NCBI GenBank assembly: GCA_001460835.1
Contig: CYKH01001409.1
Coordinates: forward strand, 36,015-60,325
Length of the DNA stretch: 24,311 nucleotides
Direction: 5' to 3'
Origin: Bodo saltans
Taxonomy: Eukaryota; Euglenozoa; Kinetoplastea; Eubodonida; Bodonidae
Below, piece after piece: positions 4,999-22,023 of the stretch. Each line of letters starts with the position of its first letter. Position 1 is the stretch's first letter. The notes under the pieces are model-generated. The model was not told where the DNA came from. It saw only the letters and a list, made by a program, of their open reading frames with translations, and ran no database searches. Position numbers and translations under genes: made by a program.

Positions 4999-7701
4999 AT
5001 GATCGTTCCCAGCGGCTGTCCTCCCATGGACCCCACTTCCACCACAAAACGGAGGAGGGGAGTCGCCCCTCTCTCCCTCACCTGCCTCACCACCAGCACA
5101 TCAACACCAGCAAGCAAAGATATCGCCTCTCAGCGGAGTCCCACTCCATACTTAGCGGACGATGCCGATTACGCTGCGTTCCGGCAACAAGAAGTCACGT
5201 GGCTGCGTATGATGCATGACCACGTCACAAAAGCTCTTCCCAAGGACGTCTACTTCGATCCCACACTCCGCAAAACGAACGAAGCCGCATTGCTTGCAAT
5301 GGAGGTGGACAAAGCATCCGAGGCGATCATGACGACCCAAGAAGACAAAAGAAGCAGACGAATTGCAAGGAAAGCAACCCTCGGTGCTGAGGGGGTTCAA
5401 GATGAGAGCAGCTTAGCAACCCTCGGTGCTGAGGGGGTTCAAGATGAGAGCAGCTTCCCGACGTCGTCGAGCGTCACCGACTCAAAAACTGATGTGAGCG
5501 CTAAGAAGACTGCTGCCTCACCCACCCCGCCTGTCTCACCAACCGTGTTGTGGGGGAAAGCACTTAACGGTGACATGCTTCGGCGTGTGTTCACCTCCGT
5601 CCAACGATTTCGTGCAAGGGGCGATGAGAAGGCACTTGACCTCGCTGCTCGTGTGATTGATAGAATGTTGTCCCTCCGCAAGCCGAGGATGTTGCGGTGT
5701 CTTCTCCGCAGCTACTTGGACGACGTGATGCTTCTCTTGCAAGTATTGTACCCATCTCTGAGCAAGAGGAGAAGCGGAGGCTTTCCAGAGGCGTTGCTGA
5801 CGTCGGTAGCGACAATCCACAGCACCGCCCAACCAGCGGCGAAAGGTACCACCACCACGCCGTCACCATCTTCCAACGTGCCCTCCACTGTCAAATCTCT
5901 ATCGATAGGCGACACCCCTAGAGTCAAACACGCGGCAATCGGCCTGAGACCTTTCGCCACCCTTTCCAAACTCAGTTGCCACATGGCCACCATTGAAGAC
6001 CTTGTCGATGCAGTAATTCCTCCCTGCGATGACACAACCTTCTGCGGGCTGCAGGAATTCTCTGAGAGGCTCAACGCAATGATGTCCATTGAAATCTGTA
6101 AGTGCCGCTTAATTCCAATTGCCTGTGATGCTCTTCGCACTTCGAATTATACGACCCCGTCATCTTCCCCTCTGGTGAATGTGCCAGAGTTGGGCATCGA
6201 CGACGCGGTCAGAGTGTGGAGCACCCTGCATGAAGCGACCACACGGCTACAGTTGTTTATCAGCAGTCACTGTGAAGGCGACGATGACGATGGCGAAGAT
6301 TCCGCTAGCGACTCGGACACAGCGACGTCGACTGCAAGGGCCCTAGACCTCAAGGAAGACGGAGAGGGCAGCAGTCGAACGGCAGACTCTACCGCGGCGT
6401 GGAAGCCGATGCTGCGTGATGTCGTCAAAGAATCGAAGCTCTTCGGGTCTATTTGTGCCGGCCTCAGTGCTTCCCCCTCATCCCTTCAATCCACACACGG
6501 CGAAGCCACGAGCGGCTACGCAGCCTCTTGGGTACGACGCAAGAGGCTTGCGGCAATGACGCTTCGCACCCTTACTCAAGATAAAGAGACGCTGCACTAC
6601 CTGCAGACAGTGTGTTCACTGTATCCACATGTCTGGGACTACATACTGCCGAGCTTGGTGGACAGTGATTTGTGCTTGAGACAAGAAGTGTATGATTGTG
6701 TGCTGGCGCTGATCTCTAATGTCGAGGGAGATGAAAGCTTTCTCGGGACAAAGATCAAGTGGATTCTGATCAACAGCTTCCAAGATAGAATGCTTGCGTG
6801 CGTGGACATCTCTGCTGAACCGTTGCTCGTAAGCAGCGCTGGATCTGGTTCTCCCACCCGTCGCAGTCGCAACTCTATCAACAACAACGGCTTGGAAAAT
6901 GTACACCTCCAGCAAGTTGCTCCCTTCTCGCGACACAGCTCACAACAAGCCCTCGCACTCATATCCGAACTACTGTACGCTGTTCACGGGGATAAGTGCA
7001 GCAGCAGCAGTTCCTCCTCAGCACAGCAGCCGCAGCAGCCAGTCATCCCCCCAGCAGATATGGAGTCCTACATTACATTCCATAAGTCTGCCATCACGCT
7101 GATTGTGGATCGCTTAGAACATTTCTTCCTCCACACAGCGCAGCAGCCCAACAAACGGCAACGGGATGGAAGTGTCATCCAAAGTGCAACTCATTTGGGT
7201 TTGGGTGTACGAGGGTATCAACCTCTACTGGCAGAATTGCTGCAGCATGTGAGATCTGTAGTGGTCTACACGAAGCGAGAACGCCACCGCTCACAATTTC
7301 CCGAGGTAACGCCAGACACTCGCCGCGGTCTCGCAGATGAGTCGCCAACTTCTGGAAACATTGCCTCGACATCGACATCAGATGCACCTTCGACTTTAAT
7401 AGGAAGGCTGTACGGCACCATTTGCGGAGTGGCCAAGAAGATACACACAACGAGCGCCCAATCTCTCGAACTGTTTGGGGGTGCCCCAGAGAAACTCTCG
7501 TTTCCACTCCTTGAGCGAGTACTGCCTGACGATCTGAAGGAACGGTTGCTGCGAGTGATAGAACGGTGTGTGGAGCCTCCTAGCCCAACGGACGGATCCC
7601 ACCACCACAGGCGACCAAAAAAGAATTTGCTGCACGGCGTCTGCATGGAGCTAAAACTAAGCGTGCCCTCCTTCGAATCCAAGAGAGCAGCTCGAAAATA
7701 G
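4999..7701 (+). CDS. Hypothetical large protein, probably alpha-helical repeat (HEAT/ARM-like)
   Basis: I do not recognise the family. The 900-residue frame has two possible starts, ATG 4999 and ATG 5026 (the latter begins MDPTSTTKRRRG); the first is used by default. The N-terminal 200 residues are polar and include a perfect-phase 14-residue tandem duplication (residues 126-153). Leu-rich amphipathic segments follow, especially around nt 5560-5760 and 6530-6830 (for example LYPHVWDYILPSLVDSDL), suggestive of HEAT/ARM-type helical packing. Low-complexity linkers interrupt them: an Asp/Glu/Ser acidic stretch near nt 6277-6320, a Ser run then Gln/Pro near 7000-7040, and His-His-His with basic residues near the C-terminus. 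Several short basic clusters (KRRRG, NKRQR) could be nuclear signals. There are no membrane helices. Codon use is unbiased, unlike the two genes upstream. Confidence 0.75.
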   Translation: MIVPSGCPPMDPTSTTKRRRGVAPLSLTCLTTSTSTPASKDIASQRSPTPYLADDADYAAFRQQEVTWLRMMHDHVTKALPKDVYFDPTLRKTNEAALLAMEVDKASEAIMTTQEDKRSRRIARKATLGAEGVQDESSLATLGAEGVQDESSFPTSSSVTDSKTDVSAKKTAASPTPPVSPTVLWGKALNGDMLRRVFTSVQRFRARGDEKALDLAARVIDRMLSLRKPRMLRCLLRSYLDDVMLLLQVLYPSLSKRRSGGFPEALLTSVATIHSTAQPAAKGTTTTPSPSSNVPSTVKSLSIGDTPRVKHAAIGLRPFATLSKLSCHMATIEDLVDAVIPPCDDTTFCGLQEFSERLNAMMSIEICKCRLIPIACDALRTSNYTTPSSSPLVNVPELGIDDAVRVWSTLHEATTRLQLFISSHCEGDDDDGEDSASDSDTATSTARALDLKEDGEGSSRTADSTAAWKPMLRDVVKESKLFGSICAGLSASPSSLQSTHGEATSGYAASWVRRKRLAAMTLRTLTQDKETLHYLQTVCSLYPHVWDYILPSLVDSDLCLRQEVYDCVLALISNVEGDESFLGTKIKWILINSFQDRMLACVDISAEPLLVSSAGSGSPTRRSRNSINNNGLENVHLQQVAPFSRHSSQQALALISELLYAVHGDKCSSSSSSSAQQPQQPVIPPADMESYITFHKSAITLIVDRLEHFFLHTAQQPNKRQRDGSVIQSATHLGLGVRGYQPLLAELLQHVRSVVVYTKRERHRSQFPEVTPDTRRGLADESPTSGNIASTSTSDAPSTLIGRLYGTICGVAKKIHTTSAQSLELFGGAPEKLSFPLLERVLPDDLKERLLRVIERCVEPPSPTDGSHHHRRPKKNLLHGVCMELKLSVPSFESKRAARK
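5374..5457. repeat. 42-bp tandem duplication, two copies, in frame
   Basis: Copies at 5374-5415 and 5416-5457 are identical except for the last base (A versus C). Each encodes 14 residues, ATLGAEGVQDESSL and ATLGAEGVQDESSF, so the reading frame is kept. Confidence 0.95.
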
Positions 7702-7977: not shown

Positions 7978-10900
7978 ATGAGTTTGATTTCTTTCTTAGA
8001 GGGAGGTATCGCCGATGCCTTTGGTGAAAACAATCACAACAGCACGACGCCTCGTAAGACGCCGTCTGGCGCTGCGTCTTCATCCGATGCACCGAGTGTT
8101 GTCAATGCAAGTGGTGCCAAGTCCGCTATCACCCTTTCCACAACAGCTGCCACAACAAGCTCCACTGCCCTCGCATCGCAGCAAGATCGGAAACTTAAGC
8201 ACGATGAAATCCAAATGAGCCTGTCGATTCAATGGGCAACAGGATGCATCCTAACCAAGCAGTTTGCTGTGTCGCTGGTACAAACATGCCCTAACGGCGC
8301 GCATGATCTGAAGACAATCTTCTTCAGTGACTTTGATCATTACCTAGCCCGTCGGCTGGATGAAAAAGCAGGCCAATCCCAGTCGGCAAAAGACGCTGCA
8401 GCAGCAGCGATGGGCGGCAGTATCGCTTCGAAATCCCGTTGGAAGAAGGTGGCACGGAAGCGTGGCGAGCTGGTTGCAGCAATGACCGGTGTGCTCGACG
8501 CTGAGGGTGGCGATTTCATTGCTCGCGATGACCAGACTTCGCGTGTTAAGGCGGGCAAGATGCTTGACGTTGGTATGCTGGGTGGGAGCGATAGCGATGA
8601 CGATGAGACTGGGGGTAGCGGGAGACGATTTGCGAAGCTTCAGCAGACTTCAGCCGCATCCCAAACCGCCACTCATTCCCACTTCTCCAACTTCTTAAAC
8701 GTCGCCAACGGCCTCCTTACGCGCAAGACGGCACGCACTCTTGTATTTCTCGATGCACCGCAATTTGTGTTGCGAGCACTCAAAGTGATGTGCTTGTTGG
8801 ACGTTGTTCCGCAGCACTTTTCTGACGACATTGAATCGCTTGAGATCAATGAAATGCTGGCTGCCTTACGGTGGAGGCAGGTAGACGGCCTTGGGCTGCG
8901 TGCCCCGATGTCCGAAACGGAGCAAGCGAGCGACTACCTTTCCGATGACGATGACCCAGCGTCGAAGTTTCGACGGGAAGATTACGACGCCGATGGATAC
9001 TTTAAAATCGTGCAGCAACGAGATCGTCGTCGCTCCCAACGATGGGAGCGCGAGGTTCGAGAGCGATGGTACAGTCTGCGGGAGCTGCTCGCAGTGGAAG
9101 GCCAACTTCAATACTTTACCCGACTCCCCATTCTCACCTTCGCGCTTTACGATTTATTCCTTGGCGCGAACCATCGCAGGACTACCACCAACACCGTTCA
9201 CTGGAATGATGTAGTTGAGTACTTAGGAGACTGCAGTGGCGGCTCCGGTGGTGACAACGACGCGAAGGGTGCCACCGCAGGAGGAGCGGCCCCCACGACT
9301 TCTGACACTGCGGCTCGTGCCATGCGTGAGGCCATTCACACCATCGCATTCCCTGACGTCAACCGTGCCGCTGTGATCATCCCGTGGCTCAGTAGAGGCG
9401 TGATCATCGCGTTAGAGATTGATCGCAAAGAGCAGGAGACGCTTTCCATGTTTGATTCAAGTGTCCTTCGCCCTAACCGTGCTCACGTATGGCCGCAACA
9501 CTTCGGCAAGATCTCTCACGTAGCGGTGTGCACGGAGCTGCAGGCGATGATCGTCGCCACCTTTGACGTAGTCCGTCTGATCGACGGCGATAACTACGTT
9601 GTGAAGTTTATGCATCGCGTGGAGGAACCCATCACCGCTCTTCAATGGATCGAGGAGTCCAGCATGCTCGTGGTGGGCACACGTGCTGGGAGTGTGGAGG
9701 TATTCCGTCTTCGGAACCTAGATACCTGGTTCTTTGGCTGCGGGTTCTTTGGCTGCGGATCTCGCGTGGTGACGTCGGTTCCATCAGAGGACAACTTCCT
9801 CAACAAGAAGCTACATTCCGATGCCATCACTACAGTGGGGCAGCGTGTCCTCCCTGGCACCACCATTCTCACCGCGTCCATGGACTGTAGCTTGACCAGT
9901 TGGTCGCTAGAATCCAACGTGGTGAGGCGTGTGGTTGGTGCTGTGGCGCTGGGGTTTGAAGCCCTCCCCTCCCTTGCGTTGGTGTTTGCCTATGGCGTGG
10001 AGCTGTTCCCCATGCTGTGGTCGTACACAGTGGCCAACTCCAAGCCTATCATCTTAGGCGGGGCCAAGAAGGGCATTCGGCCCCACCAAGCTCGCATCAT
10101 CGGTGTCGCTCTCCTCTCCCACCCCAAGAACAGTGGTTGCTCCATCGACCGGTTGGGCGGAGTGAAGGTGTGGGATTTGTGGGAACAAGGTCTCCTTCAG
10201 AGTTGGTGTGCGATGGACCACATCCCTCCAGGCCTCAACACACGCGGCCTCACCTTCCAGAACTTCTTCGTGTCACCCAATGGCCGCGAGCTCACGATCG
10301 TCTCATCTAGAATGTTTCACAAGATTGAGCTCATGAAAGCAGAAGATGCCCGCCGTGCACCCATTGCAAGTAACGCACCTGTCCACGCACTGGCGCACTG
10401 CCCAGAGCTTCGTCTCTTTGTATCGGCGCAGCGGAATAGTGTGACGATTTGGAATGCTGTGACTGCGGCCCCCATCACTACCTACGAGGACGTCTCCCGG
10501 GTTCCTGGTGACGAGATACTGTCCATGAAGGTGTACGAGTCGCCTAACCGAGAGATACGGCTGGGGACCAAGTGTGGCTGCGTCATCACAATGTCCCTTG
10601 GGAATGGTAGCATTAAGAACGTGTATCGCCATGCGTCCCACAAAGACATTCAATGCTTCGTGTTCGTCCCGGTCCTGGAGCTGCTCGTGCTAAGTTGTGA
10701 GAAGTCTGCAAAGTCTGTTGTACCTGGGGATGAGAAGAGCTTTGTGCTTCCTCAAAAAACTGCTCTCGGGTTTGCAGATGTGTGCATCCATCACACCACA
10801 ATGCTCTTGATTGCAGCCCACGACGATGAAGTTCGATGCACTGTATGGGATGCAAGTCCCACCACACCTAATCTGTGGATTCGTCTCTGCGATGTGACCA

Positions 10901-12681
10901 TTCCTACCAAGTACCTTGACCGGTCACTTGGTAGCGAGGGAGGGAGGAAAGATTCTGTCCACCATCATGACAATGGCGCCAGCCCTTCCCCTGATCGAGC
11001 TGCATCATCAGAAACCAAGGAAGAAAGTTTGGGTCTCGGAACCGTCGTTTGCGCATTGTTGGAGGATTTCAACGGCACTGCGTTCTTCGCCATGAGTGAC
11101 ACAACGTCCCAGTTTTACATTTGTCAACTCATTGTACAACTGGACGGAAAGGATATCTCGCTGGGTCGCAACGACCACAACAGTGCCGCGGATACGACTG
11201 CTGAAGACAACGACGATGAAGACAACGATGCCAAAGGAGGCGCAGGGCGCCGCTCGACTGCGCTTGAAGCAGCATCGCGCCGTGTAGCCCATCGTCGCAA
11301 GTCCACCTTGTTTGACAAGTGCGTTGGTGTGATGCACAACATTGGCGTTGGGGAGGCGTCCGTGAAACCCAGCGGTGGTACCTCCACGGCGATTTCGAAC
11401 GATGGCCCACGAGCTGTGCCCATGTTGGGAAATGCAGGAAAGAAGGATGTTGCACGAAAGGTGTCCATCGTGGTACGCCAAATTGCCCCTCATAGGCTTC
11501 ATGCCACGAACAACACCGGCGCATCCCTGCCCCCTGGAAAGGTAGATCAGGACGTCATCCCCACCATCACCTCGATTCGATACTTGAATGCATTTGGACT
11601 GCTCTACATCGCCGATGACCTTGGTCGCGTGAGCATCTACGATATCGCTGGAGTGTTGCTGCAGAGCACTCAAAGTCTTGCCTCATCGCCCAGCGCCCCT
11701 CACCTGACCCCTCAAGCAAGCATGTCGCTTGCTTCAGGCAGCTCGGGCAACACGGTAGGCACAGTGTCACGCGGGCGGCCGATGATGAAGACGACGTCCA
11801 CAGTCACTACCAACTTCAAGAACACAAGACCGCAGTCGATTCACGATTTGGTGCTCGCGGAGCAAATTTGGGGGAAAACAGATTTGCCGTTTGCGGTGAC
11901 ATTGGACGACCGCATCGCAGAAATGGGCGAAGTCTTTCAAACCTTTACGACAAAGCAAAGCAGCGTTTCGCAAGCTACCAAGGAGAGGAATCGGAAGCGC
12001 CGAGAGCAGCACGGCGGTGAGTCCGCTGCTGATGGGCCATCAGAAACGGGCTTGAATTCGGCACCGTCAGCAGGGAACGATGTATCGTGGGGAGCGTCCC
12101 GAGAGAGCAATCCCCTCTCCGAAGCGAAGGCAAGCGATTCTGCGGAGTCCAAGTCCGACTTCCTCATTTGTATCGAAAGCCAAAGCGGTGCGTTCAGCAG
12201 CGACGATTTCACGCCTCCCAGCAAGCCGATGGATTCTCATCATGCCGTCATCAGTCCGAACCCTGCACCACCCCTGCCACAGTTTATGCTCATCCCAAGT
12301 CTTGCTGGTGGTGGTGCTAATCCTGCTAGCGTGATTGCCCCCAGCGGTCTTCACGTCAAGGTAGACGTGCGTGAGGGGTCTTCGCTGAAGGTGGACTTAG
12401 GCGCCACTGCTCGTTTCCAAGGAAGCGTGGTGAACTCAGGTGGTGGTCCTCCCCACACCAGCGGCGGTACGTTTGGGGACATGAGCGTCACTTCAAGAGC
12501 AGCCACGATGAAGTTCCAAAACGCCCATCGTGTGAAGCTCGGGCCCCCTCCCCCCGTCGCAGAGACCCCGAAGCACAACAGCAGTGTGGTCGCAAAAGCA
12601 TCGTCGTTCGGCACTGCAATCCCAGACTTGAATAATAGCAGCAATCGTATGCTGGAACTATTCATTATTTTTTTTTTTTGA
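7978..12681 (+). CDS. Giant EF-hand/WD40 protein (WDR49/CFAP337-like), N-terminal part; frame broken at 3' end
   Basis: The first 1567 codons of what appears to be a single longer gene ending at 15722. A polar Ser/Thr/Ala N-terminus and acidic patches are followed by a region with EF-hand-like character: a D-x-D-G segment near residue 336 and FALYDLF...VHWNDVVEYLGD at about 388-418. Degenerate WD40 blades start near residue 458, with Asp/Ser-x-Trp or V-x-V-F/W endings such as GSVEVFRLRN, GVKVWDLWEQ, NSVTIWNAV and GRVSIYDIAG. EF-hand-like repeats followed by many WD blades is the layout of WDR49/WDR64/CFAP337 proteins, which are linked to cilia; assignment is by layout and motif resemblance. 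The last residues (after LELFI) are encoded by a T-run and are not genuine: the stop at 12679-12681 arises from a frame change at a duplicated segment, and the last blade lies in the next frame. Confidence 0.75.
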   Translation: MSLISFLEGGIADAFGENNHNSTTPRKTPSGAASSSDAPSVVNASGAKSAITLSTTAATTSSTALASQQDRKLKHDEIQMSLSIQWATGCILTKQFAVSLVQTCPNGAHDLKTIFFSDFDHYLARRLDEKAGQSQSAKDAAAAAMGGSIASKSRWKKVARKRGELVAAMTGVLDAEGGDFIARDDQTSRVKAGKMLDVGMLGGSDSDDDETGGSGRRFAKLQQTSAASQTATHSHFSNFLNVANGLLTRKTARTLVFLDAPQFVLRALKVMCLLDVVPQHFSDDIESLEINEMLAALRWRQVDGLGLRAPMSETEQASDYLSDDDDPASKFRREDYDADGYFKIVQQRDRRRSQRWEREVRERWYSLRELLAVEGQLQYFTRLPILTFALYDLFLGANHRRTTTNTVHWNDVVEYLGDCSGGSGGDNDAKGATAGGAAPTTSDTAARAMREAIHTIAFPDVNRAAVIIPWLSRGVIIALEIDRKEQETLSMFDSSVLRPNRAHVWPQHFGKISHVAVCTELQAMIVATFDVVRLIDGDNYVVKFMHRVEEPITALQWIEESSMLVVGTRAGSVEVFRLRNLDTWFFGCGFFGCGSRVVTSVPSEDNFLNKKLHSDAITTVGQRVLPGTTILTASMDCSLTSWSLESNVVRRVVGAVALGFEALPSLALVFAYGVELFPMLWSYTVANSKPIILGGAKKGIRPHQARIIGVALLSHPKNSGCSIDRLGGVKVWDLWEQGLLQSWCAMDHIPPGLNTRGLTFQNFFVSPNGRELTIVSSRMFHKIELMKAEDARRAPIASNAPVHALAHCPELRLFVSAQRNSVTIWNAVTAAPITTYEDVSRVPGDEILSMKVYESPNREIRLGTKCGCVITMSLGNGSIKNVYRHASHKDIQCFVFVPVLELLVLSCEKSAKSVVPGDEKSFVLPQKTALGFADVCIHHTTMLLIAAHDDEVRCTVWDASPTTPNLWIRLCDVTIPTKYLDRSLGSEGGRKDSVHHHDNGASPSPDRAASSETKEESLGLGTVVCALLEDFNGTAFFAMSDTTSQFYICQLIVQLDGKDISLGRNDHNSAADTTAEDNDDEDNDAKGGAGRRSTALEAASRRVAHRRKSTLFDKCVGVMHNIGVGEASVKPSGGTSTAISNDGPRAVPMLGNAGKKDVARKVSIVVRQIAPHRLHATNNTGASLPPGKVDQDVIPTITSIRYLNAFGLLYIADDLGRVSIYDIAGVLLQSTQSLASSPSAPHLTPQASMSLASGSSGNTVGTVSRGRPMMKTTSTVTTNFKNTRPQSIHDLVLAEQIWGKTDLPFAVTLDDRIAEMGEVFQTFTTKQSSVSQATKERNRKRREQHGGESAADGPSETGLNSAPSAGNDVSWGASRESNPLSEAKASDSAESKSDFLICIESQSGAFSSDDFTPPSKPMDSHHAVISPNPAPPLPQFMLIPSLAGGGANPASVIAPSGLHVKVDVREGSSLKVDLGATARFQGSVVNSGGGPPHTSGGTFGDMSVTSRAATMKFQNAHRVKLGPPPPVAETPKHNSSVVAKASSFGTAIPDLNNSSNRMLELFIIFFF
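9728..9757. repeat. 15-bp exact tandem duplication inside a WD40 region
   Basis: Copies at 9728-9742 and 9743-9757 are identical and in frame, giving FFGCG twice in WFFGCGFFGCGS directly after a WD-blade strand (VEVFRLRNLDT). It probably lengthens a loop between blades. Confidence 0.93.
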
Positions 12682-12836
12682 AGTTCCAAAACGCCCATCG
12701 TGTGAAGCTCGGGCCCCCGCCCCCCGTCCCAGAGACCCCGAAGCACAACAGCAGTGTGGTCACAAAAGCATCGTCGTTCGGCACTGCAATCCCTGACTTG
12801 AATAATAGCAGCAATCGTATGCTGGAACTATTCATT
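12509..12836. repeat. 158-bp imperfect direct duplication flanking a T-run
   Basis: Copy 1 is 12509-12666 and copy 2 is 12679-12836, with a 12-nt spacer of A plus eleven T; with the T that starts copy 2, the run is twelve T. The copies differ at four positions: two silent, and two changing Ala to Pro and Ala to Thr. The offset is 170 bp, so the second copy is out of phase by one base. Either one extra T, or removal of one copy plus spacer (12667-12836), would give a continuous frame from 7978 to 15722. Confidence 0.95.
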
Positions 12837-15722
12837 CCCTCGTCCACCAACTCCCCACAAGAAGACTCCCTCGTTGGTGCCAAGTTTAAGCAGTCGTTAG
12901 GGACCATGGACAGCACCTCTGCACCTCCCCATGGCGGTGGGATGAGTGGCACAATGCGGCCAGGAGCGTGGAACAACTCAGCCAGCACGCCCAAAGCGAA
13001 GTTGGGGGCACACGGCAAGACGTTGCTACCCTCCGTAGTGGCCTCAATGGTGCCATCTGTGTTCGTCACGTCCCCTATGGCAACATCTCCAAAGGCCATG
13101 GGAACGAGCTTTCACACAACTTTTGCGGCTGACACTGCGGTTGCACCTGGTGGAGTAGAACTCCCCACTACTAGCAGGCGTCGAACCGTGGACTTAGTAT
13201 CACCTAAACATGCGGTACCGACTGCCTTCGCTGTCTCCCCTGGTTTTCCAACAGGTCCACCAGTCCAAGAGGTTGTCATTCCCCCGCCCGTCGCGCTCAA
13301 ACCAAAAGTGTGGCGTGCTCGAAGTGTTGTCGCCAACGCGGAGCCTCCCCCACCAGACGTGGTGCAGCTGCAGGGGAGCGTGTACCTTGTGCATGTTGCC
13401 GTTGCCCACCCCAACCATGCCATTCCCTCGTTGATCATCTTAGACTCACCATTGGTGTCGATTGCCACATGCGGTAAGGACCACTTGATCTCCTTGTGGA
13501 CTCTGTTTATGAAGCCAATTGGACGGCTGGCGCTCAGCGTTGACGCTCGCCTTTCACTGTACGCTAAATTTGAAGGGATGAAGTTCAAAGGAGCGGCCAA
13601 GCCTTCTGGGGCAAAGGGAGAAACAGATCACCTTTCTTTATCGACATCACTGTCGCGTCGCCAACAAGGTCGCAGGAATCGAGGTGCCGTTCGGCGCAAA
13701 AGCTGCGCGCCTCCGCACCTCATGGGAGGAGGCAGCACGATGGTGGATTCCAACAGCGGCGACATGGAAGAGGTATTCGGCAACTCGAAGGACCGCCTCA
13801 GTGTGTTCGATGATGTCCCTCGTCGATTCCGATTCTTCGGCAACTCGAAGGACCGCCTCAGTGTGTTCGATGATGTCCCTCGTCGATTCCGATTCTTGGA
13901 GCGGTCACCTATAAGCGACTGGGAATTCGAAATGGACCGAGTCAACGATGTAGCAGGCGACACTATGGGAGGCGGTGGTGCGGTTGACGCGGAGGACGCT
14001 GAACAAGAGCGAGCAGAGGCGGCAGCGGCGTCCATCTCCAAGACAGGAGGGGGCACCGCTGCGCCAATGCGGCCCATCTTGTGCGATTGGGAGTTCCTTG
14101 TCGCCACCGGACTCGGCGGGCTGGATCGGCCTTTAAGCAGTGGACAACCAGCGGGAGGAGCAGATGAAGGTTCTATCTTGGCAAACCTCGATGCATCTCC
14201 TATCGGCACACCTTCGGGCAACAGCCCCACAGACACTGGCCCTTCGACGTTCTTCCTCACGGCCACCGCTGGAGACTCTCCTCGACAACAACCGAAGTAC
14301 ACCGCCCGGAAGCCAAAGAAACGGCTGCCAAAAAAGACTGCAGAACGGCTGCGTCTCACGCATGAACAAAAGGTGTCCATGTTCTTAGGCTGGTGCTTCG
14401 GTAAAGCGTTGAACACATCGGCAACGGAGGGGCGATCGGTTGATAGAATTCTTGCACTCAAACAAATGGGGCAAACAGATCTGGATGACGTGGTCAACGA
14501 CATTCTGCTGGCGAAGGAGGACGCAGAAGAGGCAGAGAACGCGCGTCGCCTGAAGGAGGCAGAGGATCTCACTTCATTCAAAATGACTCGCGAAATGAAA
14601 CTTCTGTTTGGGACTACGGAAGCACAGGGCGACTCCGTGATACAGCGCCCGGCATCGCCTGAACTAATCCTGCGCGATGGAGAACTCCTCGACGCAACCG
14701 ATGAGCGCTTGGCATCACCTGATCGCGGATACGATCGCTGCGACGAGGCGTGGTTATCTCGTGTTGTATTGAAACACATGGAGCCTAAGGTAGTGGTGCT
14801 ACCAGTGCCGACCACCACGAAGATCGAAAATATGCTGGAGCGCAAGCGCACCACGACTGTGACGTCCCCGCCAGCACTTGCCCGCAGGACGGCAGAACGA
14901 GTCCACAACATCGATGCTGTGGTGGCACAATGCAACTACAAAGACCGCGTGAATGCTTGGGAGCTGATGACGCCAGATGAGCGATGGGAAGATCTTGAAA
15001 CGTTGGAACACATGCCCCACGAAGAGTTCGATAAGCGTGTGATGGAGCCGAGCTTGAAGCAAGCCCGTGAAGATGTGAAGATGGTGGTCGTGCAGCAACG
15101 GCAAATTGAAGAAAGCCGATTGACTCGAACCGTGTCTTCGCTACCGCCCATCATGTCTGCCATGGCAACAACACGGCAACCACAACAAGCATCTCACCAA
15201 CGACGCCGCTCCCCTCCACGATCATCCTCGACGCTTCTGGAGAGGAATAAAGGCAACATGACTCGTCTAGAGATGCAGCAATCCGCGCTCCAACGGGACA
15301 TTGCCAACACGTCAGCCTCCTCCTCGTCGCTTGCTGGGCTTGGTGGGAAGGCGCCACGTGCTGCCGGTGGTGCCGTCACGGCCACCAAATGGGCCAACAT
15401 GACAACGTCCCAATCACTTCTTGAGACAACGATGGGACGGACACGTGGAGGTGGTGCGTCGAGCGTCGAGCCTCGAGGAACGGTCAGCGGAGGGCTCAAT
15501 GATACCTTTAGTGGAGCACCTCGTCGCTCCTTCACCCCTAGCGTCCTTGCCACGATGAATAGCACCATGAGTAGCAACCAAGGCACTTCCACAATGCCTG
15601 CGATTGTCACGGCTGGGCATCCCAAGAAGCGGAAGCCTAACCTTGGGCCTAAGGTCCCGGCGCCAGTGGAAGATACATATGTTGCGATGCATTCTCCGGT
15701 GCAACTTCATGGTCGCAGGTGA
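12681..15722 (+). CDS. Giant WD40 protein (WDR49/CFAP337-like), C-terminal part without its own start
   Basis: About 1013 codons open in a different frame from the preceding part. The frame begins with the second copy of the duplicated segment and has no ATG before 12819, which is internal to that copy. Near nt 13435-13530 it contains what looks like the final WD blade (SIATCGKDHLISLWTL then PIGRL), resembling the WDR49-type ending in which a last blade reading '...vrlWTl.g.yIGtf' precedes a long tail. This supports one gene spanning 7978-15722, of about 2524 residues if the duplication is collapsed or about 2581 if a T is missing. The tail carries a 20-residue exact tandem repeat, a charged helical region at about nt 14490-14650 (Glu/Ala/Lys/Arg-rich), a second one at 14930-15130, and a basic Ser/Thr-rich end. 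Upstream and downstream parts have similar composition. Confidence 0.7.
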   Translation, partial: KFQNAHRVKLGPPPPVPETPKHNSSVVTKASSFGTAIPDLNNSSNRMLELFIPSSTNSPQEDSLVGAKFKQSLGTMDSTSAPPHGGGMSGTMRPGAWNNSASTPKAKLGAHGKTLLPSVVASMVPSVFVTSPMATSPKAMGTSFHTTFAADTAVAPGGVELPTTSRRRTVDLVSPKHAVPTAFAVSPGFPTGPPVQEVVIPPPVALKPKVWRARSVVANAEPPPPDVVQLQGSVYLVHVAVAHPNHAIPSLIILDSPLVSIATCGKDHLISLWTLFMKPIGRLALSVDARLSLYAKFEGMKFKGAAKPSGAKGETDHLSLSTSLSRRQQGRRNRGAVRRKSCAPPHLMGGGSTMVDSNSGDMEEVFGNSKDRLSVFDDVPRRFRFFGNSKDRLSVFDDVPRRFRFLERSPISDWEFEMDRVNDVAGDTMGGGGAVDAEDAEQERAEAAAASISKTGGGTAAPMRPILCDWEFLVATGLGGLDRPLSSGQPAGGADEGSILANLDASPIGTPSGNSPTDTGPSTFFLTATAGDSPRQQPKYTARKPKKRLPKKTAERLRLTHEQKVSMFLGWCFGKALNTSATEGRSVDRILALKQMGQTDLDDVVNDILLAKEDAEEAENARRLKEAEDLTSFKMTREMKLLFGTTEAQGDSVIQRPASPELILRDGELLDATDERLASPDRGYDRCDEAWLSRVVLKHMEPKVVVLPVPTTTKIENMLERKRTTTVTSPPALARRTAERVHNIDAVVAQCNYKDRVNAWELMTPDERWEDLETLEHMPHEEFDKRVMEPSLKQAREDVKMVVVQQRQIEESRLTRTVSSLPPIMSAMATTRQPQQASHQRRRSPPRSSSTLLERNKGNMTRLEMQQSALQRDIANTSASSSSLAGLGGKAPRAAGGAVTATKWANMTTSQSLLETTMGRTRGGGASSVEPRGTVSGGLNDTFSGAPRRSFTPSVLATMNSTMSSNQGTSTMPAIVTAGHPKKRKPNLGPKVPAPVEDTYVAMHSPVQLHGRR
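13776..13895. repeat. 60-bp exact tandem duplication, in frame
   Basis: Copies at 13776-13835 and 13836-13895 are identical and encode FGNSKDRLSVFDDVPRRFRF twice in the tail of the WD40 protein. Absence of even silent differences suggests a very recent event or an assembly duplication. Confidence 0.95.
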
Positions 15723-20422: not shown

Positions 20423-20476
20423 ATGGGAGCTCCCGCCCGCAAGGTTGTTGATCGCCGCGTCCGCAAGGGCTTCAAG
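20423..20476 (+). repeat. Source copy of a 54-bp dispersed repeat (first 18 codons of uL13)
   Basis: Identical to 21267-21320 over all 54 bases. The match begins at the A of ATG and ends after codon 18; bases immediately outside differ on both sides (T versus C before, A versus C after). Confidence 0.95.
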
Positions 20477-21091
20477 AAGCACCGCCCCGACGTCATCACC
20501 ATCGACCTCAAGGACCACGTCCTCGGTCGCGCTGCTGCCGTCGTTGCCAAGCAACTGCTCCTCGGCAAGAAGATCACCGTCGTCCGCACCGAGCAGGTGA
20601 CGATTGCTGGCACTGAGATCCGTAACAAGATCAAGTACCTCAACTTCCTCCGCAAGCGAAAGCTCACCAACCCCAAGCTTGGCCCCTTCCACCACCGCTC
20701 CCCCGCTGATATCTTCGTCCGCACCGTCCGATCCATGCTCCCCCGCTACACCAAGCGTGGCGCTAAGGCACTCCGCGCCCTGGTTGCCTATGAGGGCATC
20801 CCCACCAACTGCACCCGCACTGGTGGACGCGTTGTGATCCCCAAGGCTCAGCGCTTCTCTTGCTACAAGAGCGAGCGCCCCTACACCGTGCTCGGCAACA
20901 TGTGCAAGCACGTCGGCTGGAAGTACAGCCCCGTCGTTGAGAAGCTCGAGAAGGCCCGTATTGAGAAGGCTGCCCGCCAGTACAAGAAGAACGCTGGTGT
21001 CCGCAATGCCTGGAAGTGTGCCCGCAAGGAGGCCCTCGGCAAGATCAACAAGAAGAACCTCGACGTCCTCAAGAAGTTCGGATTCGCGTAA
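20423..21091 (+). CDS. RPL13A: 60S ribosomal protein uL13 (L13a)
   Basis: A structural protein of the cytosolic large ribosomal subunit. The 222-residue product shows the eukaryotic uL13 pattern in order: the HVLGRAAAVVAKQLLLGKK start of the core, IRNKIKYLNFLRKR, NPKLGPFHHRSPADIF, RTVRSMLPRYTKRG, YEGIP, LGNMCKHVGWKY, and a Lys/Arg/Ala-rich C-terminal helix. About 27 basic residues precede the core, a N-terminal extension that human L13a lacks. There is no intron. Codon use is extremely biased (Lys almost always AAG, C-ending codons), typical of a highly expressed gene. The first 54 nt of this CDS are repeated exactly at 21267-21320. Confidence 0.97.
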   Translation: MGAPARKVVDRRVRKGFKKHRPDVITIDLKDHVLGRAAAVVAKQLLLGKKITVVRTEQVTIAGTEIRNKIKYLNFLRKRKLTNPKLGPFHHRSPADIFVRTVRSMLPRYTKRGAKALRALVAYEGIPTNCTRTGGRVVIPKAQRFSCYKSERPYTVLGNMCKHVGWKYSPVVEKLEKARIEKAARQYKKNAGVRNAWKCARKEALGKINKKNLDVLKKFGFA

Positions 21092-21220
21092 ATTTGAGAG
21101 GAAACTAAGAACTGGGATGAAGGCGGAGAACGTTGTGAGATAACGAAAACAATTCCTTTGACTTTGTGGTGTGTGAGTTCTGATGATCTTGATACTGTCA
21201 TGTCTCTAAAGTCCATTGCG

Positions 21221-21251
21221 TGTCGTTACTTTTTTAAAATTATTGCTCAAG
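21221..21251 (+). promoter_or_regulatory. Candidate spliced-leader acceptor before the uL13 fragment
   Basis: A T/C-rich stretch around 21221-21236 precedes AG at 21250-21251, with no other AG between. A mature mRNA starting here would present the ATG at 21267, heading the uL13-derived 25-codon frame, before any ATG of the downstream gene. Confidence 0.45.
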
Positions 21252-21266
21252 GGTGAATTAGTCGAC

Positions 21267-21320
21267 ATGGGAGCTCCCGCCCGCAAGGTTGTTGATCGCC
21301 GCGTCCGCAAGGGCTTCAAG
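21267..21320 (+). repeat. Exact 54-bp copy of the uL13 5' coding end
   Basis: A second copy of uL13 codons 1-18, placed 844 bp downstream of the original. Read from its ATG it gives MGAPARKVVDRRVRKGFK followed by PWGSLIP and a stop (21342-21344), a 25-residue frame. It is out of phase with the gene at 21358. The hexamer GTCGAC abuts the ATG. Confidence 0.95.
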
Positions 21321-21357
21321 CCCTGGGGCTCCCTTATCCCCTGAGGAGTTCCGCGCT

Positions 21358-22023
21358 ATGTACCAAGAGAACATGCGCAAGAAGTTTGAAGAGACACGTC
21401 AACGTCAAGCAGCAGGGCTTCCTGCAGCGGTTGGGATGGCCCCGCGGCCCCAAGAAACGCGCGCTGAGGTTCCGCCACTGTTCCGTCCACAGGCGGCTGC
21501 GCCTCCACCACCGCCACCCCCGCAGCAAGAACAAAACAATGACTTGTGGGAGAATGCCGAGCCCCAGGTTGCTGGCGCGGCACCGCCACAACAACTTCTC
21601 CACCGATGGTTCCCATTTCCTGTGTGGGACTTTCTCCTACAGGTTGGGTTTGCTGCGTTCCTGTTCACCGGCGGCGACGTCATGCGACTCAAGTTCCTAG
21701 GCGTGTTCTGTGCAATCGCCGTTGTCAAATGGGCAACGAGCTTCGCTGGTAAATTTCGCCTTCGTCGCCACCGCCTCGATCACGAAAACGATGTTCGTGC
21801 AGAGGGAGAACGTGTCGAGCTGGTAGGAAGGAGAAAAGTGTGGTATATGGTATGGAAGAGTGTTGCGACGTTCTTTGTCTCTATTCACCCCTCGTTCCGA
21901 GTAGAAGCACTCGAGTTGGAAGTGAGGATGGACGGCATTCACCACGATGACGCGGTGAGAAGAGCAGCAAGAGCTGAGGCGGCTGCGCAACAGGCTGCTG
22001 CTGCTGCTCCACCAGTCGCGTGA
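21358..22023 (+). CDS. Hypothetical membrane protein with two or three hydrophobic helices; native 5' end uncertain
   Basis: I do not recognise the family. From the first in-frame ATG (21358) it has 221 residues. The frame is coding-like further upstream (PGAPLSPEEFRA just before that Met), but there it runs into the uL13 fragment and reaches a stop at 21259-21261 without an ATG, so the natural start appears lost or displaced. The N-terminal 25 residues are charged (MRKKFEETRQRQ). A Pro run near 49-55 follows, then hydrophobic segments at about 86-103 and 111-129, separated by a short polar turn. A third, more amphipathic stretch (VWKSVATFFVSIH) is near 184-196, and the C-terminus is Ala/Gln-rich. 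Two close helices with a basic RLRRHR stretch between them and the third suggest an ER or organelle membrane protein, but nothing firmer can be said. Confidence 0.65.
   Translation: MYQENMRKKFEETRQRQAAGLPAAVGMAPRPQETRAEVPPLFRPQAAAPPPPPPPQQEQNNDLWENAEPQVAGAAPPQQLLHRWFPFPVWDFLLQVGFAAFLFTGGDVMRLKFLGVFCAIAVVKWATSFAGKFRLRRHRLDHENDVRAEGERVELVGRRKVWYMVWKSVATFFVSIHPSFRVEALELEVRMDGIHHDDAVRRAARAEAAAQQAAAAAPPVA

Follow-up and report, generated by a model that had tools for sequence, protein, structure and literature searches.

The analysed window comprises 24,311 nt of the Bodo saltans genome (C516:36015-60325, one of 934 contigs in a 29.3-Mb assembly), and positions are given below in window coordinates unless another sequence is named. 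A complete uL13 (RPL13a) gene of 222 codons was located on the + strand at 20423..21091. Its product matched the Pfam family PF00572 with an E value of 4.3e-18, and the two best PDB chains, both named L13a, aligned over residues 3-222 and 1-222 of the protein. We take these chains to be kinetoplastid entries. Because the alignments begin at residue 3 and residue 1, respectively, and extend to the end of the protein, position 20423 is very probably the true start codon of uL13.

The first 18 codons of the gene (20423..20476) recurred on the same strand at 21267..21320, a second copy that we refer to as the stub. Comparison of the two stretches within the window showed identity at 54 of 54 positions, over the whole of codons 1 to 18, which confirmed the exact repeat described in an earlier, sequence-only reading of the locus. 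The repeat length is divisible by three, and the two copies are 844 nt apart. The bases that flank them differ, with T before the gene and C before the stub, and with AAGCAC after the gene stretch and CCCTGG after the stub; the stub is thus bounded by GTCGAC immediately before its ATG and by CCCTGG immediately after its final AAG. Searching the assembly with the first 60 nt of uL13 returned three matches: the local gene, the stub (E 3.4e-21 over 54 nt), and, at 93%, the beginning of a uL13 paralogue on contig C703. The query detected no other piece of uL13 in the assembly contigs. Given an exact 54-nt match at that E value, with the local gene and the C703 start as the sole matches beyond the stub, chance was rejected as the source of the repeat, as the sequence-only reading had held. 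The stub is closer to the neighbouring uL13 (100%) than to the C703 gene. Among 61 exact local matches listed from 16 sampled sequences (at least 22 nt, low complexity left out), it was the only + strand match that starts with ATG, such starts being judged on the + strand. The GTCGAC hexamer flush with the ATG had raised the suspicion of a cloning site. When the 64 palindromic hexamers were counted, it occurred 80 times in 195,807 sampled bases and came 61st in the order from rarest to commonest; a hexamer this common is not unusual for the genome, and the cloning-site origin was rejected.

Between the uL13 stop and the stub lies a spacer of 175 nt (21092..21266, + strand of the window sequence). 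By eye, it holds a pyrimidine tract, an AG at 21250-21251 and then a 15-nt leader that ends at the stub ATG, and we regard this AG as a putative splice acceptor. Applying the same rule by eye, i.e. the first AG past the pyrimidine tract, left leaders of similar form at all three starts: 13 nt for the local gene, 16 nt for the C703 gene and 15 nt for the stub. The reading frame that opens at the stub ATG crosses the junction and, upon translation, gives a short frame of 25 codons plus TGA on the + strand (21267..21344), which stops at 21344, 13 nt before the next ATG. That ATG, at 21358, is the first in-frame ATG of the downstream open frame, gene X (21319..22023, + strand), for which no family was found. 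Relative to the stub, gene X occupies the +1 frame, and it has no start codon at the junction. The stub had been described as sitting in front of the next gene; the arrangement is better described as a stub joined to a gene that appears to lack its original start.

The 37-nt stretch that separates the junction from the ATG at 21358 (21321..21357, + strand) is coding-like by GC content, coding score and predicted helix. Its GC content is 0.68, a value reached by 0 of 286 intergenic windows, and its coding score in the X frame was reached by 4 of the 286, compared with 95 and 29 of the 286 for the other two frames; these windows were picked for absence of long open frames and are therefore skewed towards low GC, and the test stretch is 37 nt long. 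In a structure model of gene X predicted from one sequence, a confident helix starts six residues before the Met encoded at 21358. The model is poor overall (mean pLDDT 60.9), and the first helix, with block means of 92 and 93, is the sole part used here. Since the 37 nt look coding in the X frame and the predicted helix begins ahead of the Met, the original start of gene X probably lay further upstream and was lost at the junction. Searches for relatives of gene X returned none in Pfam at E values up to 1, and only seven weak matches among PDB sequences (best E 0.66). No paralogue was found in its own genome. With a single-protein query, which reaches close relatives only, 34 pattern matches in a genome contig collection and 2 in a viral contig collection were obtained, none of which was confirmed. 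Apart from the stub itself, neither the spacer nor gene X turned up elsewhere in the assembly.

The two full uL13 genes, on C516 and C703, share their coding sequence and not their flanks. The CDSs are identical at 648 of 669 positions, with 21 differences that change 3 amino acids, whereas upstream of them only 18 of 60 positions match, no more than expected by chance, and the first 40 nt of the 3' flanks look unrelated when viewed side by side. This coding-only sharing rests on one pair, and HSP70 differs in this respect. A difference-free run of 218 nt between the two genes (P 0.005 for random placing) suggests gene conversion inside the uL13 CDS. The stub relates to the local gene in the manner of a truncated tandem paralogue: identity is complete from the start codon on (54/54), and the sequences upstream of the ATG are unrelated, with 20 of 60 positions in agreement, again at chance level. 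The sequence-only reading had assumed that the edge of a local duplication would not be expected to fall on the start codon. The full uL13 pair, which shares the CDS and nothing outside it upstream, does not support that assumption, and neither do two ribosomal-protein paralogue pairs of Leishmania major (PMC11098316). Since uL13 paralogues share the coding part only, a broken second copy can show identity that begins precisely at the ATG.

We therefore consider it likely that the stub represents what is left of a second uL13 gene, namely its 5' end, and that the rest of that gene is missing together with the 5' end of gene X. A second, tandem uL13 gene would once have existed; it would have stood, or may still stand, directly downstream of the first. 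The spacer at 21092-21266 is read here as the 3' flank of the first gene followed by the 5' flank of the lost one, and would carry the putative acceptor 15 nt before the second ATG. The assembled sequence would lack the second copy from its codon 19 on, all that followed it, and the 5' coding part of gene X. The identity would start at the ATG as uL13 copies have the CDS in common and not the flanks, and would stop at codon 18 as that is where the break fell. Against a second gene stands the fact that no full second uL13 lies beside the first, and 54 of its 669 nt are all that is seen. As to the nature of the break, an assembly join was rightly listed among the options of the sequence-only reading. 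A single deletion explains the anatomy more simply than a collapse of the tandem pair during assembly does: after a simple collapse, the 3' end and 3' flank of the second gene should have stayed joined to gene X, but they are absent, so that the assembly version needs an extra loss. A simple collapse is thus disfavoured, yet multicopy genes are broken elsewhere in this assembly, and we give about equal weight to a real deletion and to a short-read assembly or gap-closing join over the tandem pair.

The published B. saltans assembly was built from Illumina reads with Velvet (k=41), SSPACE, GapFiller and IMAGE and was checked with REAPR, which was run with reads of a 3-kb library; the libraries described are of 500 bp and 3 kb (PMC4728078). 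The assembly analysed here appears to resemble it. At least one locus each of alpha-tubulin, HSP70, H3 and H4 shows cut or orphan pieces, the names alpha-tubulin, H3 and H4 being recognised by eye within their Pfam families. Alpha-tubulin runs off the end of contig C626 after 806 nt; on C128, an N run is followed directly by the gene, which starts there at its nt 754. The C128 gene also contains an in-frame internal duplication of 21 codons at a 63-nt offset (L042 1876-2005), which is most likely an assembly artefact. The start of contig C360 falls inside an HSP70 gene. On C223 (L033), an orphan HSP70 gene start of 66 nt (22 codons) lies directly before a full HSP70 gene, as part of a 184-nt unit with 3 mismatches; the 5' leader is also common to the copies, and a further copy is cut off after 8 nt by the contig end. 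In the same sequence, L033 973-1551 and 3772-3858 hold nested partial repeats of the 5' leader, and the stretch common to the contig-end copy starts near a possible acceptor AG, as if it comprised the mature mRNA part only. On C197 (L044 1000-1039), a 40-nt exact orphan adjoins an N run; it consists of the final 39 nt of the H3 coding sequence and the first base, T, of the stop codon. The length of 40 nt equals k-1 for the published k=41, a coincidence that is only suggestive, as N runs may not be scaffold gaps. A 145-nt exact repeat on C750 (L046 964-1108 and 1690-1834) involves H4, with the last 9 nt of the CDS and the 3' flank in the upstream copy fused to other sequence.

Other copies of these families look whole, with long open frames and no break in the tables: three of four tubulin matches (on C436, C620 and C651) and several of the 13 HSP70 matches (e.g. 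on C33, C857, C712 and C501). Among the control families searched in the contigs, the shortest length seen being 10,049, PF00164 and PF01015 had no match and PF00297 had one weak match. The absence of PF00164 and PF01015 fits a loss of multicopy genes from the assembly and proves nothing alone.

Local duplications were also seen outside these families. Sequence restarts across a poly-T run at 3 places among 129 homopolymer runs of at least 7 nt in the 195,807 sampled bases: at 12509-12836 in the window, at L019 6170-6330 and at L024 2824-2950. The one in the window is a 158-nt duplication, 97% identical, with the poly-T run between the copies; it sits where two long open frames, 7978-12681 and 12678-15722, meet; these may be one gene, and the arrangement resembles a gap-closing join between two alleles. 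Two other duplications in the window, at 5373-5456 (42 nt) and 13776-13895 (60 nt), are perfect tandem repeats within open frames. In L021 (1-130 and 384-1022), the contig start is the end of a paralogous gene beside a fuller copy; the two paralogues have an exact 67-nt block in common inside the coding sequence and differ after it.

A further explanation does without a second uL13 gene at the locus and attributes the stub wholly to assembly, a contig end beside gene X having been wrongly extended with, or joined to, uL13 sequence at gap closing. The resemblance of the assembly to the published short-read, gap-filled one (Illumina, Velvet; PMC4728078) speaks for it, as do the join-like local duplications without N in the sampled sequence, the three poly-T restarts among them, and the alpha-tubulin gene on C128 with its duplication at a 63-nt offset. 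A misplaced uL13 fragment would, however, be unlikely to have the ATG as its very first codon and a plausible acceptor 15 nt ahead of that, and REAPR with the 3-kb library reads described in PMC4728078 should presumably have caught some large false joins. We consider this artefact unlikely. Another view, that the sequence is a real templated insertion or conversion patch by which the 5' region of gene X received a 54-nt stretch from the neighbouring uL13, is in our estimate a little less probable again. The exact identity, the length in multiples of three and a donor only 844 nt away agree with a patch, and so does the finding that the spacer and gene X occur nowhere else in the assembly. It would nevertheless leave the start exactly at the ATG to coincidence, no target-site repeat is obvious by eye at the stub ends, and the 37 nt past the junction, coding-like and without a start, would mean that gene X must have lost sequence as well. 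The variant of a transcript-derived patch, which the sequence-only reading had offered, found no favour: by eye there is neither a poly(A) nor an obvious target-site repeat, the upstream identity is at chance, and a retrocopy of the mRNA was rejected.

The stub might also have been captured for a function, giving gene X a start and a basic N-terminal leader. The stub peptide, MGAPARKVVDRRVRKGFK, is indeed basic, no ATG lies between the putative acceptor and that of the stub, and the frame of the stub ends in CCC-TGA, where a +1 slip would enter the X frame. Yet the stub is out of frame with gene X and stops after 25 codons, and the searches yielded no X homologue to show which N-terminus should be expected. 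Such a capture is very improbable, and the specific route, in which translation from the stub would slip by +1 at CCC-TGA (21339-21344) into gene X and so endow it with a basic leader derived from a ribosomal protein, is scarcely credible. Stop contexts like CCC-TGA can be slip-prone. Under the preferred reading of a broken second uL13 gene, a real stub would amount at most to a short upstream frame ahead of an N-terminally shortened gene X.

The stub is ordinary in kind, and its value lies in the caution it teaches and in the pointer it gives to breaks in the assembly. A copy that begins precisely at a start codon does not, alone, indicate that a kinetoplastid genome has received a patch from an mRNA or by engineering; where ribosomal-protein duplicates have just the coding part in common, this ATG-precise look is expected of broken copies. 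The locus also flags broken multicopy genes in the assembly, which affects gene counts and gene models, including that of gene X.

As reported for L. major in PMC11098316, the RPL13a paralogues have near-identical CDSs and divergent UTRs, and in a tandem RPS16 pair the UTRs diverge although the CDSs are identical. The situation in B. saltans is alike in that the same gene, L13a, is duplicated and that the sharing lies in the coding part and not in the flanks. It differs in that the L. major RPL13a copies reside on different chromosomes, according to the same source, whereas a tandem copy is proposed here, a point against the preferred reading, and in that both L. major copies are studied genes, whereas the second local copy in B. 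saltans is an 18-codon stub. Within the genus, the Bodo tubulin genes were described in PMC2621209 as having no amino-acid differences and unalignable 3' regions, and an HSP70 tandem array was described there on a B. saltans fosmid. Coding-only sharing between gene copies is not universal. PMC1621084 describes concerted intergenic sequence in the tubulin arrays of Trypanosoma; together with the leader shared by the HSP70 copies on C223, this means that tandem kinetoplastid copies need not have divergent spacers, which also weighs against the preferred reading. The HSP70 locus nonetheless offers a likeness within this assembly, since there, too, an orphan gene start (of 22 codons) lies directly ahead of a gene; unlike the uL13 stub, the HSP70 stub shares the 5' leader and precedes another HSP70, whereas the uL13 stub precedes an unrelated gene. 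More broadly, the uL13 stub resembles multicopy genes broken in short-read assemblies, which leave orphan or cut pieces at joins, contig ends and N runs, and it differs from the broken alpha-tubulin, HSP70, H3 and H4 pieces in being joined without N to an unrelated gene.
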